Of a stretch of 33,422 nucleotides of DNA, positions 8,494 to 31,061 are shown piece after piece (position 1 is the first letter of the stretch; the number at the start of each line of letters is the position of its first letter). The stretch is from a virus. The translations under genes and the position numbers were made by a program. The stretch lies in IMG/VR virus record IMGVR_UViG_3300034082_001582, positions 1 through 33,422 of that record; one strand, written 5' to 3'. Under the pieces are notes generated by a model. That model searched no databases. It was not told the origin of the DNA and saw nothing but the letters and a program-made list of their open reading frames with translations.

Positions 8494-9006
8494 ATGGAAG
8501 TATGGAAAGATGTTATTGGGTACGAGGAAATGTATCAAATAAGCAATTTAGGAAGAGTAAAAAGCCTAAATAGATTAGTAAGTCAAAAAAATGGGGTTAA
8601 AAAGAAAATAAAAGAGAGAGTTTTAAAACCATGTGATAATGGTAAGGGGTATTTATTTGTTATATTAAGAAAAGATGACTATTCTAAACAAAGAACACTT
8701 CATCAAATGGTTGCTGAATCTTTTTTAAATCACAAAACTAAAGATTATAAGTTAGTTGTAGACCATAAAAATGGGATAAGACAAGATAATAGGCTTGAAA
8801 ACTTGCAATTGATTACTCAAAGGAATAACACATCTAAGGATAAAAAAAATAAAACATCAAAATATATAGGTGTTTGTTGGAATAAAAACATCAATAAATG
8901 GATGTCAGCTATTAGAATAGACGGTAAGAAAAACCATTTAGGATATTTTAAATGCGAATTAGCAGCCGCAGTAGCATATCAAAATAAATTAAAAGATGTA
9001 TGCTAG
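8494..9006 (+). CDS. Free-standing NUMOD4-HNH homing endonuclease
   Basis: 170 residues in three modules: NUMOD4 at the N-terminus (EVWKDVIGYEEMYQISNLG, then RVKS), an HNH_3 domain in the middle (VVDHKNG, residues 88-94, then DNRLENLQLIT), and an AP2-like DNA-binding domain at the C-terminus (SKYIGVCWNKNINKWMSAI, about 122-167). These enzymes nick or cut specific DNA and spread their own gene. It sits between helicase and nuclease genes and its end overlaps the next start by 7 bp, so the insertion is neatly fitted. It has its own promoter box and a structured leader. It belongs to a different HNH group from the one nested in terL. Confidence 0.92.
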   Translation: MEVWKDVIGYEEMYQISNLGRVKSLNRLVSQKNGVKKKIKERVLKPCDNGKGYLFVILRKDDYSKQRTLHQMVAESFLNHKTKDYKLVVDHKNGIRQDNRLENLQLITQRNNTSKDKKNKTSKYIGVCWNKNINKWMSAIRIDGKKNHLGYFKCELAAAVAYQNKLKDVC

Positions 9007-9635: not shown

Positions 9636-9850
9636 AAGAATTTCAAACAGAAATGAAAGCACTAATTAAAAAAAGTGGCTTTGTTCACGATGAAATAAAA
9701 GAGCTTGTACATTTACACGCTTTAAAGATTGAAGCTAAAAAAAACAAAGAGTATAATCTACTCCCATCAACAGAAGGGATATATTATTTCAAAGCTTCAG
9801 TACAATTATACGACTTAACTATTTACGAAATAAACCTAAAATCACTATGA
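9632..9850 (+). CDS. Small protein of unknown function
   Basis: 72 residues, coupled by ATGA overlap to both neighbours. The first 35 residues are helical and charged (MKEFQTEMKALIKKSGF then HDEIKELVHLHALKIE); the second half has a strand pattern (GIYYFKASVQLYDLTIYEI). No known motif is seen. It sits directly before the ERF-type annealing protein and is probably co-translated with it. Function unknown. Confidence 0.68.
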   Translation: MKEFQTEMKALIKKSGFVHDEIKELVHLHALKIEAKKNKEYNLLPSTEGIYYFKASVQLYDLTIYEINLKSL

Positions 9851-10365
9851 AAAATTTAATCTTAATACAAGCAGAATTAAAATGTCCTAAAGGATCGTTC
9901 AATTCTTTTGGAAAATACAAGTACAGAACAAGCGAACAACAGCTTGAAGCATTAAAGCCATTCTTAAACAAGTATAATTGCTTACTTAATTTATCGGATG
10001 AAATTGTTATGCTAGGTTCAAAGTTTTTTTTAAAAGCAACAGCACACTTTGACGATGGCGAATTTAATATCGAGTCTTATGGCTATGCTGAACTAAGCGA
10101 ACATAAAGGTATGAGTAGTGAACAATGTACGGGAACGGCATCCAGCTACGCTAGAAAGTATGCTATCAATGGTTTATTCTTAATTGACGAGTCTGAAGCG
10201 GATATTGATTCAATTGCAAAAGATGAACGTGAATCATTAACCAATGATCGTTTTGAAAAGGCAGTTGAAAAAATCCGAAACAAACAATACACGATTGAAG
10301 AATTGAAAGCTAAATTTAAGTTGAACACAGCTCAAGAGGGAGCTTTATTACTTATTGAACTATGA
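9847..10365 (+). CDS. erf: ERF-family single-strand annealing protein
   Basis: 172 residues. The ERF signature is present: GKYKYRTSEQQLEALKPFL (about 22-40), a central beta region (GSKFFLKATAHF), and MSSEQCTGTASSYARKYAI (about 89-107), the conserved helix found in ERF/Sak4-like annealing proteins. The C-terminus is a charged helical tail. ERF proteins form rings on single-stranded DNA and anneal complementary strands, which helps genome circularisation and recombination. Two genes downstream is a PD-(D/E)XK exonuclease, its usual partner in two-component phage recombination. Overlaps both neighbours at ATGA. Confidence 0.88.
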   Translation: MKNLILIQAELKCPKGSFNSFGKYKYRTSEQQLEALKPFLNKYNCLLNLSDEIVMLGSKFFLKATAHFDDGEFNIESYGYAELSEHKGMSSEQCTGTASSYARKYAINGLFLIDESEADIDSIAKDERESLTNDRFEKAVEKIRNKQYTIEELKAKFKLNTAQEGALLLIEL

Positions 10366-10553
10366 GTCTTTACTTAATTATTTTAACAGCTTATTGGATT
10401 ATTTTATTAATATTTTTAATATCAATTAATCCAAAGTTGCCTACAGGGTCAACACGAATAATCAGAAATTGGAACGAAGGCTTATTTATCTTCGGATGGT
10501 TAAGCTTTCTATTTTCCGCAGTACTTACATTTTTAATTCAATCATTATGTTAA
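10362..10553 (+). CDS. Small two-span membrane protein
   Basis: 63 residues, ATGA-coupled to the ERF gene. Two hydrophobic segments, about residues 3-22 and 43-60, flank a polar loop (SINPKLPTGSTRIIRNWN). There is no signal-peptide cleavage site and no lysis gene nearby. A membrane protein between two recombination genes is odd; it may be an early inhibitor or anti-superinfection protein that happens to share the operon. Function unknown. Confidence 0.65.
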   Translation: MSLYLIILTAYWIILLIFLISINPKLPTGSTRIIRNWNEGLFIFGWLSFLFSAVLTFLIQSLC

Positions 10554-11167
10554 TTAGATGTTCATCATTACCAAAAATTTGCACCGCTTCAAAAGTGAAG
10601 GGATCTTTAAGCGAAACTGCAAAGAGCTACATTAAAACAATAGCTAAACAAGACTTCTACGGCTACGAAAGCGAGCTAAACAATAAGTACGTAAAGAAAG
10701 GTATAGAGTGCGAAGACGCAGGCATATCACTTTATAACAAAGTGTTTTTCACTTCACACGAAAAGAATAAAGAAAGGAAGTCTACTGCAATCATTACAGG
10801 GGAGTGCGACATTTACACACCTGAGTTAATCATCGACATTAAATGTTCATGGTCTTTCGAAACGTTTCCTGCAACAAGCGAAGATATAACTCTAAAAGAC
10901 TATGAGTATCAACTAAGGGGCTATATGTACCTTTATGATGTCAATAGTGCGGAGCTTGCTTATTGCATGGTAGACACTCCGGATCATTTAATTGGCTACG
11001 ATAACGTGCAAATCCATAAAACAATTAATGCACCAATTGAAAGCTTAGTGACTACTTTTAGAATCGAACGTAACGAAAAGTTAGAAGAAGAAATGATTGA
11101 AAAGGTACACATGGCACATGAATATTACAATGAGTATATTAACAATTTAAATTTAAAAAACAAATGA
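10547..11167 (+). CDS. PD-(D/E)XK exonuclease (YqaJ/lambda-exonuclease-like)
   Basis: 206 residues from the ATG at 10547, overlapping the previous gene by 7 bp; a start at 10469 would overlap it by 85 bp and add residues with no fold. The nuclease core is visible: TGECDIYTPELIIDIKCSW gives Asp in GECD and the D-x-K pair (IDIKC), followed by YEYQLRGYMYLYDV, the Gln-helix typical of YqaJ-like and Cas4-like exonucleases. It probably digests one strand of duplex DNA so the ERF protein can anneal the other. It overlaps the next gene at ATGA. Confidence 0.83.
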   Translation: MLIRCSSLPKICTASKVKGSLSETAKSYIKTIAKQDFYGYESELNNKYVKKGIECEDAGISLYNKVFFTSHEKNKERKSTAIITGECDIYTPELIIDIKCSWSFETFPATSEDITLKDYEYQLRGYMYLYDVNSAELAYCMVDTPDHLIGYDNVQIHKTINAPIESLVTTFRIERNEKLEEEMIEKVHMAHEYYNEYINNLNLKNK

Positions 11168-12947: not shown

Positions 12948-13362
12948 GTATATAGAAACACCTGAAAAACTTTGGAGTTTATTTGAAGATTATGTTATAT
13001 ATGAGAAAAATAATCCAATGTATAAAGTTGAGTATGTAGGTAAAGATGGAAGGATTGAAAAAACACCTTTAGAAACACCTATAACTTTTGAAGGCTTTGA
13101 ATGCTACTTAGAGGATAAAGATATTATTTCTCATTTATCAGATTATTCTGCAAACAAAGACAATAAGTATTCTGAATATTCGACTATCATTACACGTATA
13201 AAGAGAAATTGCTTTGTACATAACTTTAGAGGTGCTTCGGTTGGTTTGTTTAATGCTAACTTAATAGCCAAAAAACTTGGATTAATTGACAAGCAACAGC
13301 ATGAGATAAAATACGAACAACCATTGTTCCCAGATGTTCAAGAGAACGACAGCAATCAATAA
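12934..13362 (+). CDS. terS: Terminase small subunit (gp3-like DNA-packaging protein)
   Basis: 142 residues. It carries the pattern of the terminase small subunit family that I know from Bacteroidota phages and gp3-type DNA-packaging proteins: ETPEKLWSLFEDYV at the N-terminus, PITFEGFECYLEDK, then YSEYSTIITRIKRN and GASVGLFNANLIAKKLGL (about 113-130). It binds the packaging site on phage DNA and hands it to the large subunit. The gene overlaps terL by 29 bp, a long overlap that suggests tight translational coupling. It has no zinc or Walker motif. Confidence 0.85.
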   Translation: MPKHKYIETPEKLWSLFEDYVIYEKNNPMYKVEYVGKDGRIEKTPLETPITFEGFECYLEDKDIISHLSDYSANKDNKYSEYSTIITRIKRNCFVHNFRGASVGLFNANLIAKKLGLIDKQQHEIKYEQPLFPDVQENDSNQ

Positions 13363-15313
13363 GATACTTACTTTAAAAAAGTTTGTAAGGGGTGTACAAG
13401 GTGGAACTTCGGCTGGCAAAACATTTGGTATATTACCTATTCTTATTAATCAATGTACAATACATCCTTTATTAGAAGTTAGTGTTGTTGCTGAGTCTAT
13501 TCCTCATCTTAAGAGGGGAGCAATGAAAGACTTTAAGAAGATCATGACATTAACAAGTAGGTGGTTTGATGAAAGATGGAATGCTTCGGATTATAAATAT
13601 ACTTTTGGTAATGGATCACAAATTGAATTTTTTTCAGCTGATAACGATGCTAAATTAAGAGGTGCAAGGCGTGACATTCTTTACATGAATGAGTGTAATA
13701 ATATGACTTTTCATTCATACACTGAACTAGCTTCAAGAACTAAACAATGTATATATTTGGATTGGAATCCAACAAATGCATTTTGGTTTCACACCGATTT
13801 AAAAGATGATGAGGACGTTGATTTTTTAACGATAAACTATTTAGATAACGAGTCATGTCCTGAAAGTGCTAAGAGTTTTATTGAGAAAGCTAAAATAAAA
13901 TCTTTGACTTCTGAATATTGGCGAAACTGGTATAATGTTTATGGACTTGGAGAAATAGGGTCACTACAAGGGGTTGTGTTTAGTGATTGGCAACAAGTTG
14001 ATAATATACCTATTGATGCAAAGTTAATGGCTTATGGTTGCGATTTTGGATATTCAAACGATCCGACAACAATCACAGCAATTTATCAATATAATAATTT
14101 ATATTATTACGATGAGTTGATTTATCAAACAGGATTAACGAATAATGAGATAGCAAAACTATTTAATGCAAAAGGCGGTTTAAATGATGTCTACATTTAT
14201 GCTGATAGTGCCGAACCTAAAAGCATTCAAGAGTTAAAAAACTTTGGCTTAAATATTCGACCTGCTGAAAAAGGAAAAGATAGTATAATGTTTGGTATTC
14301 AAAGAATGCAAGAGAATAAATTTTTTGTAACTTCGCAAAGTGTTAATTTAATTAAAGAACTTAGAATGTACACCTGGGACACTGATAGAGCTGGCACAAA
14401 GTTAAATAAACCTATTGATGCCTTTAATCATTGTTTTGTAGGTGAGACAATGATAAGAACAAATAAAGGTGATATTAGAATAGACTCTATAAAAGTAGGT
14501 GATTACGTTTTAACAAGTAAAGGATATAAAAAAGTATTAAAAACTTTTGATAATGGTATTAAGAGTGTTAATAAATACTCGATGCAATTCGATACTTTTT
14601 TAGTATCTTTGTGTTCAACAAAAGAACATAAAATAAAAACTAAAAAGGAATGGAAACCAATATCAAAACTACAAAGTCAGGACTTACTATTCCTGTTCAA
14701 TGTTTTAACGGAAAAGATTATAAACTTTACAAAGACGAAAGATATTTTAGTAGAGGAACAAAAAGATTACATACAGAAGTTTGGAAGTATTATAAAGGCG
14801 AAATTCCAAAAGGATATGATATTCACCACATTGACAATAATACCTACAATAATGAAATATCAAATCTTAATTTGGTTTATAAAACTTTACATAAAAGGTT
14901 TACGGGTAAACAAAGATTTAAAAACAATCCTGAATGGTTTAAAGACTTTCATGCGAAAGGTATTGAAAAGGCAAAAGAATGGCATAAATCAGCAGAAGGA
15001 TTACAATGGCATTCAGAACATGGAAAAGCGTGTTGGAATAAAAGAGAATATTTTTTGCGAAATTGTACGGTATGTGAAAAGGAATATAAAACGCCATTCC
15101 CAGATAGAAGTAAATACTGCCATCAAAACTGCAAAGCTAAAGCACTTAGAATTAGGAGAAAGTTATCAAGCTCAAGTTTATGATATTATGGTAGAAGATT
15201 GTCACGAGTATTTTGCAAATGGCATATTAGTACATAATTGTATTGATGGGATTAGATATTACTTTACGAGCAAAGATAAATTTAGTGGCAAATATTATAT
15301 TGATAAGATATGA
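13334..15313 (+). CDS. terL: Terminase large subunit, interrupted by an intein
   Basis: 659 residues before splicing; 390 after removal of a 269-residue intein. ATPase: Walker A GGTSAGKT (23-30), Walker B DILYMNE (114-120). Nuclease: Asp237 (GCDFGYSNDP), Asp291 (YADSAEP) and motif III DAFNH (Asp362), which continues after the intein as CIDGIRYYF. The intein lies between His366 and Cys636, right in motif III, so the unspliced protein should lack a proper nuclease site. Spliced length is normal for a small phage terminase. TerL pumps DNA into the prohead and cuts it. The start ATG lies 29 bp inside terS; the stop overlaps the next gene at ATGA. Confidence 0.93.
   Translation: MFKRTTAINKILTLKKFVRGVQGGTSAGKTFGILPILINQCTIHPLLEVSVVAESIPHLKRGAMKDFKKIMTLTSRWFDERWNASDYKYTFGNGSQIEFFSADNDAKLRGARRDILYMNECNNMTFHSYTELASRTKQCIYLDWNPTNAFWFHTDLKDDEDVDFLTINYLDNESCPESAKSFIEKAKIKSLTSEYWRNWYNVYGLGEIGSLQGVVFSDWQQVDNIPIDAKLMAYGCDFGYSNDPTTITAIYQYNNLYYYDELIYQTGLTNNEIAKLFNAKGGLNDVYIYADSAEPKSIQELKNFGLNIRPAEKGKDSIMFGIQRMQENKFFVTSQSVNLIKELRMYTWDTDRAGTKLNKPIDAFNHCFVGETMIRTNKGDIRIDSIKVGDYVLTSKGYKKVLKTFDNGIKSVNKYSMQFDTFLVSLCSTKEHKIKTKKEWKPISKLQSQDLLFLFNVLTEKIINFTKTKDILVEEQKDYIQKFGSIIKAKFQKDMIFTTLTIIPTIMKYQILIWFIKLYIKGLRVNKDLKTILNGLKTFMRKVLKRQKNGINQQKDYNGIQNMEKRVGIKENIFCEIVRYVKRNIKRHSQIEVNTAIKTAKLKHLELGESYQAQVYDIMVEDCHEYFANGILVHNCIDGIRYYFTSKDKFSGKYYIDKI
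14591..14611 (+). promoter_or_regulatory. Possible internal promoter and hairpin before the nested endonuclease
   Basis: TATCTTTG at 14604-14611 matches the TAnnTTTG box and lies 38 bp before the nested ATG at 14650. The -33 position with a 19-bp spacer reads ATG, one mismatch from TTG. GATAC (14591-14595) and GTATC (14603-14607) form a 5-bp stem around a T-rich loop that overlaps the box. On the long terL transcript this hairpin might also affect initiation. The box could arise by chance in AT-rich DNA, so support is moderate. Confidence 0.4.
14650..15183 (+). CDS. HNH homing endonuclease nested out of frame inside the terL intein
   Basis: 177 residues, ATG 14650 to TGA 15183, in the -1 frame of terL. 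Domains: HNH nuclease (about 25-85) with HTEVWKYYKGEIPKGYDIHH, Asp62, Asn63, the N-x-x-N pattern EISNLNLVY and His81; a linker repeat EWHKSAEGLQWHSEHGKACW (110-129) typical of HNH homing enzymes; and a zinc finger Cys139-x2-Cys142, Cys157-x3-Cys161 followed by a basic tail. All residues expected of a working enzyme are there. A TAA lies in its frame at 14641, so translation must start afresh at the ATG, not read through from upstream. It overlaps intein block B at its start and block F at its end. It probably drives homing of the intein. Confidence 0.9.
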   Translation: METNIKTTKSGLTIPVQCFNGKDYKLYKDERYFSRGTKRLHTEVWKYYKGEIPKGYDIHHIDNNTYNNEISNLNLVYKTLHKRFTGKQRFKNNPEWFKDFHAKGIEKAKEWHKSAEGLQWHSEHGKACWNKREYFLRNCTVCEKEYKTPFPDRSKYCHQNCKAKALRIRRKLSSSSL

Positions 15314-15897
15314 AGATAAAAGTACCGAAGACAATCAATGACTTAAGAATAAGGCACATTGATATATTGAACGATGAAAAATATAGAGCTGAAGATTTGG
15401 ACCTAGATACTATTGTTAACTTTGTGGCTGGCATAACGGGAGAGCCATTGGAGAAACTTTACCAAGTAGACTTCAAAGATTTAACTAATATATTTTACTA
15501 TTGCATTGATTTATTTGACGGCTTTAAAATAACCGATCCAAAGAAAATCATAACAATAGAGGGCTTGGATTATAAGCTTGTAGACCCTATGAAAGTTGGG
15601 ATTGGATGGCATATTGATATTTCTAAAAGTGACTTTGAAAAGAACCCTGCATTACTAGCCGCTTCATGTTACTTGCCAGTACAATGTAAACATTATGGAG
15701 AAACAGACGAGTATTCCAATATCAAGTATCCAAGGTTTGAACGTGCTGAAATATTTAATAGTCACATGGACTTGCCTACTTACTTGAACGTGCTTACTTT
15801 TTTTTTTCTCGAATCAATGAAACAAATGAAAAGGCATACGGTCCTCCAAAAGAGGGAGCTAAGGAAAATACAAACCTTTGGCTTTGGGAGCAATTAA
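15310..15897 (+). CDS. Putative tail assembly chaperone, zero-frame form
   Basis: 195 residues, ATGA-coupled to terL. The first 166 residues are a soluble, acidic domain (MKIKVPKTINDLRIRHIDIL, later GIGWHIDISKSDF). After a run of ten T residues (15798-15807) the zero frame gives 29 basic residues ending FGFGSN, which look like the tail of a frame not under strong selection. The -1 frame stays open for 74 codons to 16031. A pair of products sharing an N-terminus is the hallmark of phage tail assembly chaperones (lambda G/GT). Identification rests on the frameshift, not on similarity; the gene is distant from the tape measure. Confidence 0.6.
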   Translation: MKIKVPKTINDLRIRHIDILNDEKYRAEDLDLDTIVNFVAGITGEPLEKLYQVDFKDLTNIFYYCIDLFDGFKITDPKKIITIEGLDYKLVDPMKVGIGWHIDISKSDFEKNPALLAASCYLPVQCKHYGETDEYSNIKYPRFERAEIFNSHMDLPTYLNVLTFFFLESMKQMKRHTVLQKRELRKIQTFGFGSN

Positions 15898-16031
15898 TCG
15901 ATATGATTTCAAAAGAATATAGGATGAGTTGGGACGATGTGACTAAATTAAATATATTTACATTTAATCATTACGTAAATTTTCTTAACTTTAAAGCCAA
16001 AGAACAAATAAGGAATATAAAACGTGGGTAG
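15798..16031 (+). CDS. -1 frameshift extension of the 15310 gene (GT-like)
   Basis: The T10 run gives a T-TTT-TTT slippery heptamer in the correct phase. From TCT at 15807, the -1 frame reads SRINETNEKAYGPPKEGAKE, then NTNLWLWEQLIDMISKEYRM and SWDDVTKLNIFTFNHYVNFL, ending at TAG 16031. Total product would be about 240 residues. The extension looks like real protein (Trp-rich, helical). An ATG in this frame at 15903 could start a separate 42-residue peptide, but the open frame upstream of it argues for fusion. A one-base sequencing error in the T run is the main alternative. Confidence 0.6.
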   Translation, partial: FFFSRINETNEKAYGPPKEGAKENTNLWLWEQLIDMISKEYRMSWDDVTKLNIFTFNHYVNFLNFKAKEQIRNIKRG

Positions 16032-29660: not shown

Positions 29661-31061
29661 ATGAGTAAAGAAAAAAAGTTTTTTGTAGACATTAATTTAC
29701 AAAGCCAAAAATTAGTAAATGCTGTAATCGGAACTAACTCCGACATGACTAAACAAGGTGCTATTCGTTACAACGGTTCAGACCTTGAGTATTATGATGG
29801 TACTGCGGTTCGAGCGTTGGCAACTGCTGCTGATTTAGCTGCATTAAATGCTGAAATCGGTATTGATTTAGCTGAATTATCGGAGCAGGTTTCTTCAATG
29901 CTTTCAAACATTGATCCTGTTGCCTTAGATTCGTTTACTGAATTATTAGCGGCGTTTCAAAGTGCTGATAGCTCTTTAGCTACAACAATTAGCAACCTTT
30001 CAACTTCTGCTACTTCTGCTATCAATGCTGAAACTGCGAGAGCAACAGCGGCTGAAGGTGTATTGACTACAAATTTAGCTACTGAAGTATCTAACAGAAC
30101 AAGTGCTGTATCTTCTGAAGCTACTGCAAGAGAAAATGCGGATACAACGTTACAATCAAACATCACTACTGAAGCTAATTCAAGAAGTGCTGCGGATACG
30201 ACACTTCAAACGAACATAACGAACGAAGCTACTGCTAGAGCGTCTGCGGATACAACGTTAACAACTAACTTGAATGCTGAAATTTCAAGAGCTACTGCAG
30301 CTGAAGCAACTTTGACAAGTGCTGTAAGTTCTGAAGCGGCAACTAGAGCGTCTGCGGATACTACTTTGACAAATGCAATATCAACTGTTGCTGGTAATTT
30401 AGCTTCTGAAATCACTGCTGCAAGAGCTGCTGAAGTTGCTTTAGGTATTCGTGTTGATAATGTATTATCTAACATTGATGCTGCTGCACTTGACTCATTA
30501 ACTGAATTACTTGCTGCTTTTCAATCTGCGGATAGTTCATTAACTGCTGCAATTAATTCACTTGCAAGCGCTCAAACTTCTGCATTAAATGCTGAGATTG
30601 CTCGTGCTACTGCCGCTGAAGCAACTTTGACTTCTGGAGCTTCTACAATTGCTGCTAACCTTGCAACTGAAATCACAAACAGAACAAATGCGGTTAGTGC
30701 TGCAAATGCTTCTATTTCTGCTGAAGCTTCAAGAGCTACAAGTGCTGAAGGTGTTTTAACAAGTGCTATTGCTGCTGAACAAGCTAGAGCTGAAGCTGCT
30801 GAAGCAACTGAAATCGCTGCAAGAAATACGGCTATTGCTGCTGAAAAAACAAACTACACTATTGCTACAAACGCATGGACAGCTGAAGGTTCACATTACA
30901 AACATACTTCATCTAATCCATTCAGTGCGGATGCAACAGGTCACTTTTTAGTGAGTGGTGAAAATGCTGATTTTTCTTATGAAGTTACAAACTCAAACTT
31001 TATTGTTTATTCTAACTTTATACCAAGTGCAAGTGTAAAATGTGCTTTCAAAAAGTTTTAA
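29661..31061 (+). CDS. Long coiled-coil tail fibre protein
   Basis: 466 residues. N-terminus KKFFVDINLQSQKLVNAVIG is a docking-type motif also found in the 31121 product. From about residue 95 to 390 the protein is built of Ala/Thr/Ser-rich heptad repeats (units such as ARATAAEATLTSAV and ASADTTLTTNLN), a trimeric coiled-coil shaft. A 60-residue segment around LSNIDPVALDSFTELLAAFQ (77-136) is repeated at 265-324. The C-terminus (from about 395) is a short globular head. It is Ala-rich, matching the phage tRNA-Ala. It precedes a terminator. Adhesion role inferred. Confidence 0.8.
   Translation: MSKEKKFFVDINLQSQKLVNAVIGTNSDMTKQGAIRYNGSDLEYYDGTAVRALATAADLAALNAEIGIDLAELSEQVSSMLSNIDPVALDSFTELLAAFQSADSSLATTISNLSTSATSAINAETARATAAEGVLTTNLATEVSNRTSAVSSEATARENADTTLQSNITTEANSRSAADTTLQTNITNEATARASADTTLTTNLNAEISRATAAEATLTSAVSSEAATRASADTTLTNAISTVAGNLASEITAARAAEVALGIRVDNVLSNIDAAALDSLTELLAAFQSADSSLTAAINSLASAQTSALNAEIARATAAEATLTSGASTIAANLATEITNRTNAVSAANASISAEASRATSAEGVLTSAIAAEQARAEAAEATEIAARNTAIAAEKTNYTIATNAWTAEGSHYKHTSSNPFSADATGHFLVSGENADFSYEVTNSNFIVYSNFIPSASVKCAFKKF

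Follow-up and report, generated by a model that had tools for sequence, protein, structure and literature searches.

The textbook intein has its endonuclease fused to it in frame. A second arrangement is that of the "fractured genes," reportedly described by Dassa in 2009, in which split inteins such as gp41-1 have a free-standing homing endonuclease between their halves. Among the HNH homing enzymes, the gene for I-HmuI resides in a group I intron. In the ShiLan element, published in 2025, an HNH gene lies out of frame in an insertion within a phage methylase gene, and the insertion has no splicing domains. On overlapping frames, the ShiLan paper cites Gorbalenya 1998 and a preprint from 2025 about non-canonical inteins of actinophages (Gosselin 2025). 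That preprint may describe a related arrangement, in actinophages by its title, and the out-of-frame arrangement may already have been reported for some inteins.

The locus considered here lies in IMG/VR record IMGVR_UViG_3300034082_001582, whose 33,422 bases are all included; "the window" refers to this whole stretch of DNA. All features given below with two dots between their coordinates are on the plus strand. The gene of interest is terL, which encodes the terminase large subunit; its nearest annotated records are those of Flavobacterium phages, at 55% identity. Elsewhere in the window, 29661-31061 codes for a long, repeat-rich, tail-fibre-like protein (ATARASADTTL-type repeats, seen by eye) whose sole match is a PHROG of unknown function. 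The terL precursor open reading frame (ORF) runs over 13334..15313 (Pfam Terminase_3C, E 1e-15; PHROG terminase, E 1e-34) and is interrupted at 14432..15238 by a contiguous intein of 269 codons, read in the terL frame (Pfam Intein_splicing, E 4e-9). End-to-end alignment with intein-less terL alleles places the N-extein at 13334..14431, ending in AFNH right before the TerL nuclease motif CIDGIRY, and comparison with the same kind of allele places the C-extein at 15239..15313, starting with Cys+1 (CIDGIRYY...).

The first-pass annotation had credited this insert with Cys1, TxxH, a final His-Asn, and Cys+1 but with no in-frame endonuclease, and the motifs and the Intein_splicing match bear this out, with the TxxH read as STKEH. 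The class 1 intein residues C1, T63, H66, H268, and N269 are invariant in 23 members, and the Cys+1 is present in the window. Judged by these motifs, the insert is a complete class 1-type intein. Its N-terminal Hint half, with blocks A and B and the conserved Trp, occupies 14432..14701 (pLDDT ~93 over residues 1-90; pN/pS 0.42 before the HNH gene), and its C-terminal half, with blocks F and G and the ending VHN, occupies 15116..15238 (pLDDT ~92; TIGR01443, E 1.6e-6). Between them, at 14705..15115, intein residues 92-228 form a linker opposite the nuclease, a stop-free spacer with a pLDDT mostly below 50 and a pN/pS of 1.15 over the overlap. In the AlphaFold2 (AF2) model, in which the Hint halves together reach a pLDDT of ~93, the intein has the Hint fold, and Foldseek matches it to the Mtu RecA intein (E 1.5e-7) and gp41-1 (E 6e-7); gp41-1 is also its best PDB match by sequence. 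IntN and IntC share one open frame, 13334-15313, as the halves of a split intein do not, and the endonuclease stands outside that frame, as it does not in a canonical intein.

The endonuclease is encoded by an ORF of 177 aa at 14650..15183, running from ATG to TGA in phase 1. Since terL is in phase 2, the nuclease is in the -1 frame, wholly within the intein DNA as had been claimed. When the two products were searched separately, the intein found Intein_splicing, and the nuclease found HNH_3 (E 8e-12) and phrog_15471 (E 2e-22). An in-frame TAA at 14641..14643, also noticed earlier, lies 6 nt upstream of the ATG. The ends of the gene overlap both Hint halves, as had been proposed for blocks B and F: the start ATG shares its bases with the intein codons GAA and TGG (14650..14653), which encode Glu and the conserved Hint Trp (TGG, 14651-14653), and the TGA falls at the start of block F (VYD). 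The HNH core (14764..14883; Pfam HNH_3, residues 39-78) and the CxxC...CxxxC zinc finger (15064..15132) are indeed intact, with the HNH residues H60, N72, and H81 and the cysteines C139, C142, C157, and C161 invariant in 33 diverse members. The AF2 model of the nuclease has a pLDDT of 86. Its nearest solved structure by sequence is I-HmuI (1u3e, profile match E 3e-4), which is also the top Foldseek match of the model in the PDB, a weak one at E 0.6. The window has a second, free-standing homing-type nuclease of 170 aa at 8494-9006, with NUMOD4, HNH_3, and weak AP2 matches in Pfam.

Comparison of terL genes with and without the intein, the check proposed with the original claim, yielded seven loci (L084-L090) that are ~95% identical in amino acids over the matched stretch and have no intein. 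In the five where the junction was read (L084, L085, L087, L089, and L090), NH is joined exactly to CIDG. The nearest terL relatives all lack the insert, except for two contigs identical to the window. Because alleles this similar lack it and are joined so exactly, the insert is, on the alignments, a discrete and sporadic element.

The arrangement proved to be no one-off: it marks a widespread family that has split inteins as a sister form. Viral contigs, genome contigs, and annotated phages were scanned and HNH rows of at least 120 aa were kept, which gave 249 rows. Nested out of frame are 190 of them (154 in one phase, 36 in the opposite one); a further 22 are split, 33 are free-standing, and 4 have a long HNH frame. 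A cut at less than 80% identity leaves 174 rows, of which 123 are nested (110:13 by phase), 18 are split, 29 are free-standing, and 4 have a long frame. In split members, the IntN frame ends close to where the HNH gene starts, the HNH gene comes next, and many have a candidate IntC start near the HNH stop; in two of them (L194 and L216), stop and start overlap as GTGA. Of the relatives in which both Hint halves are present, about a tenth are split and have the HNH gene between the halves. In a quick, unrooted HNH tree with weak support, the free, nested, and split forms interleave with 30 changes, and phase changes at least three times. No in-frame HNH fusion was found among close relatives in these scans; the one in-frame HNH intein met, in a ribonucleotide reductase (L295), is distant and carries NUMOD3. 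The exteins are nearly all TerL, and the site lies within a conserved motif, between (N/D)H and C-x-D-A-x-R-Y. Two nested-type HNH genes (L327 and L328) are among the few non-TerL cases; by eye, their host looks like a minor head protein (C-extein SNCRCRW), and it has weak Hint matches and no Pfam match.

Several described phages belong to this family. The nested form is found in the records of Tetrasphaera phage TJE1, Acinetobacter phage Highwayman, Rhodobacteraceae phage LS06-2018-MD07, and a gut phage scaffold, and in the first three, which are annotated, the nuclease is without annotation. Lactobacillus phage CL2 carries the split form. In Vibrio phage 1.238.A (L346, NC_055735), an unannotated HNH gene separates the TerL ORF from a hint-domain protein whose end is the TerL C-terminus, which amounts to a split terL intein. 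In Brochothrix phage BL3 (L347, NC_015254), gp3 consists of IntC and the TerL C-terminus, and the HNH gene is reduced to a short zinc-finger remnant overlapping gp2 and gp3; read from its sequence, BL3 has a split terL intein with an eroded nuclease.

The position of the nuclease invites the question of what it does there. One could consider it a helper of terminase packaging, kept near terL for that function and not for homing. Free-standing relatives mostly adjoin terL, here an intein-less one, and some phage HNH proteins act in packaging, according to PMC12613952, which cites Kala 2014. Set against this are the terL alleles at 95% amino acid identity that do without the HNH gene, its carriage within an intein at a fixed site, and the homing enzyme I-HmuI as its closest solved structure by sequence. 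The nuclease also moves independently of TerL. HNH similarity is far above TerL similarity in many pairs (e.g., 70% vs 36% identity). A packaging role is improbable on this evidence, and a homing enzyme is the preferred reading.

How the nuclease is expressed can be approached through its start codon. In the window's group, the ATG is made of the last base of one intein codon and the codon for the conserved Hint Trp (xxA TGG) in 22/22 relatives. The codon before the Trp encodes Glu, Gly, Ser, or Lys, yet it ends in A in all 22, for which the joint chance is ~1e-10 from each phage's codon usage if the cases are independent. In-frame stops lie a median of 12 nt upstream of the start. No strong ribosome-binding site was found upstream of it, with a Shine-Dalgarno (SD)-like 4-mer in 35/118. 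The alternative would be programmed -1 frameshifting from the terL frame, which would make a TerL-IntN-HNH fusion, and it draws on the A-rich region and on the -1 frame of the HNH gene in most nested members. The upstream stops and an ATG fixed against codon bias speak against it, as do the 13 of 123 nested rows in the other phase and the split and free relatives, which are plainly separate genes. Slippery heptamers occur in 17/110, vs 52/486 for control windows, with no clear enrichment, and programmed frameshifting was rejected as very unlikely. The start conserved at the Hint Trp, the upstream stops, and the unremarkable slippery heptamers together favour independent initiation of the HNH gene at its own ATG.

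The frame opposite the nuclease is open well beyond expectation. In IMG/VR, the 80 relatives closest by HNH similarity, the sole basis for choosing them, range from 100% to 36% identity, and all (80/80) have the HNH gene out of frame within a larger open ORF. The expected number of stops was obtained by synonymous recoding of the HNH protein with its own codon usage. For 40 non-redundant relatives (<90% identity), this yields an expectation of ~249 intein-frame stops, and 0 are seen; this is the unbiased figure. The rows counted are not independent of one another. The earlier claim that the open terL frame would be unlikely by chance is correct, modestly so for the window alone (P = 0.007 that the frame stays open under recoding) and overwhelmingly so with the 40 relatives. 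The third frame is full of stops. In the broad set, the same frame has 136 stops vs 135 expected in free-standing relatives, 112 vs 104 in split ones, and 0 in nested ones, where the label itself is defined by openness and the zero is partly by construction. Given the protein, the minority phase is expected to run into about three times as many stops (422 vs 135 in free relatives), and this can account for the 110:13 phase bias among nested rows.

These counts bear on the idea that the element works as a split intein, with IntC translated separately and the open linker incidental. The tenth of two-halved relatives that really are split lends it something. The stops argue the other way, since the intein frame has none where ~249 are expected, while true split forms show them at chance level, and this idea has very little left to recommend it.

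Selection on the two frames tells them apart. Codon position 3 of the HNH gene is the most variable in both phase classes, and the summed pN/pS of its frame is 0.31 (as in the feature itself) and 0.27. Over the same bases, the intein frame gives 1.15 and 1.62, and the non-overlapping HintN gives 0.42 and 0.39. HNH dS is comparable to HintN dS in close pairs. Because the intein frame exceeds 1 and HNH synonymous rates resemble those of HintN, the linker shows no amino acid constraint beyond stop avoidance, and a constraint on its residues was accordingly discarded; the low linker pLDDT agrees with this. From these rates, the HNH frame is under purifying selection, and the overlapped intein frame behaves as a neutral stop-free spacer. 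The test in both frames, suggested at the outset as one that could sink the claim, found purifying selection in the HNH frame only. In one set of loci (L023 vs L032 and L033), the Hint N-halves are near identical (dS 0.02) and the HNH genes differ (dS 0.36), which looks like nuclease exchange inside the same intein.

An assembly error had been named from the start as a possible flaw. Across all 1,980 bases of terL and intein, the window has two identical counterparts among other IMG/VR contigs, which rules out an assembly error confined to a single contig, and more than 100 distinct relatives with both frames intact make it a recurrent mobile element type and no sequencing accident. The view that an RNA intron, a sequencing or frameshift error, or a decaying remnant stands here in place of two working genes has no supporting point, is already refuted at the family level, and is very unlikely for the window: an Rfam search of 13000-16000 gave no match at E 1, as a group I intron would, the identical contigs and the many phages sharing the arrangement dispose of error, and strong purifying selection with invariant residues disposes of a degraded endonuclease.

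The locus is best described, with high confidence, as a contiguous TerL intein whose linker has been overprinted in another frame with a stand-alone HNH homing gene; the arrangement is related to the "fractured gene" split inteins. What the sequences show directly is its anatomy, conservation, selection pattern, and sporadic and horizontal distribution. In the proposed mechanism, ribosomes in the terL frame would translate through the nuclease region and make TerL-IntN-spacer-IntC-TerL, from which the intein would splice out and restore the TerL nuclease motif. Other ribosomes, starting at the internal ATG at 14650, would make the free 177-aa HNH enzyme. The first-pass proposal of a separate nuclease and an arbitrary linker gains support from every computational test applied: the conserved start, the HNH-only purifying selection, the stop pattern, and the low-confidence linker of the model. 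The insertion site and the distribution suggest that the target is the empty terL site, and the free enzyme would cut intein-less terL between (N/D)H and C-I-D-A-x-R-Y. Repair or recombination would then copy intein and nuclease together. The phage has an Erf-like single-stranded (ssDNA) annealing protein adjoining an exonuclease (9847-10365 and 10469-11167; PHROG), a possible recombination partner in homing. Selection keeps the HNH protein, the Hint halves, and a stop-free intein frame and leaves the linker residues otherwise free.

On a larger scale, contiguous inteins with an out-of-frame, overprinted homing endonuclease might form a major undescribed class of phage inteins. Members would turn into natural split inteins, and back, simply through the loss or gain of stops and starts in the intein frame. 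This would fill in the step still lacking in how split inteins and fractured genes originated; we hold this view tentatively, with the balance tipping slightly toward doubt. With one nuclease family found nested, between split-intein halves, and free beside terL, that origin becomes directly testable by sequence and experiment. Two proteins of different fate, a spliced-out scaffold and a free nuclease, would share the same bases, and the intein's sole price would be avoiding stops. Also, annotated phage terminases, such as those of TJE1 and Highwayman, hide an unannotated gene.

Compared with known systems, the window resembles canonical inteins in that an endonuclease occupies the linker position of a Hint domain, and it differs from them in that the endonuclease is out of frame. 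Its nuclease shares the HNH_3 core of I-HmuI-type homing endonucleases and the 1u3e profile match, and it has a different C-terminal region. As in fractured genes, the endonuclease has an ORF to itself that sits between IntN and IntC, and split members occur in its HNH family; here, however, the intein is unbroken and its open frame continues across the endonuclease gene, and the fractured-gene endonuclease is said to belong to a different family. The first-pass annotation knew of no established class of this kind. The closest published relative found in full-text searches of the PMC library, ShiLan (2025), is not an intein, and it is a precedent for an out-of-frame HNH gene. ShiLan likewise has an HNH gene with zinc fingers out of frame in an insertion, an open host frame, and a mobile, disjunct distribution. 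No mycobacteriophage relatives of the window's HNH were found among the matches listed at E 1e-5. The ShiLan insertion is without splicing domains and is thought to be retained in the protein, whereas that of the window is a complete intein in terL. Unlike ShiLan, the window's HNH gene has its ATG tied to the Hint Trp and has sister forms in split inteins.
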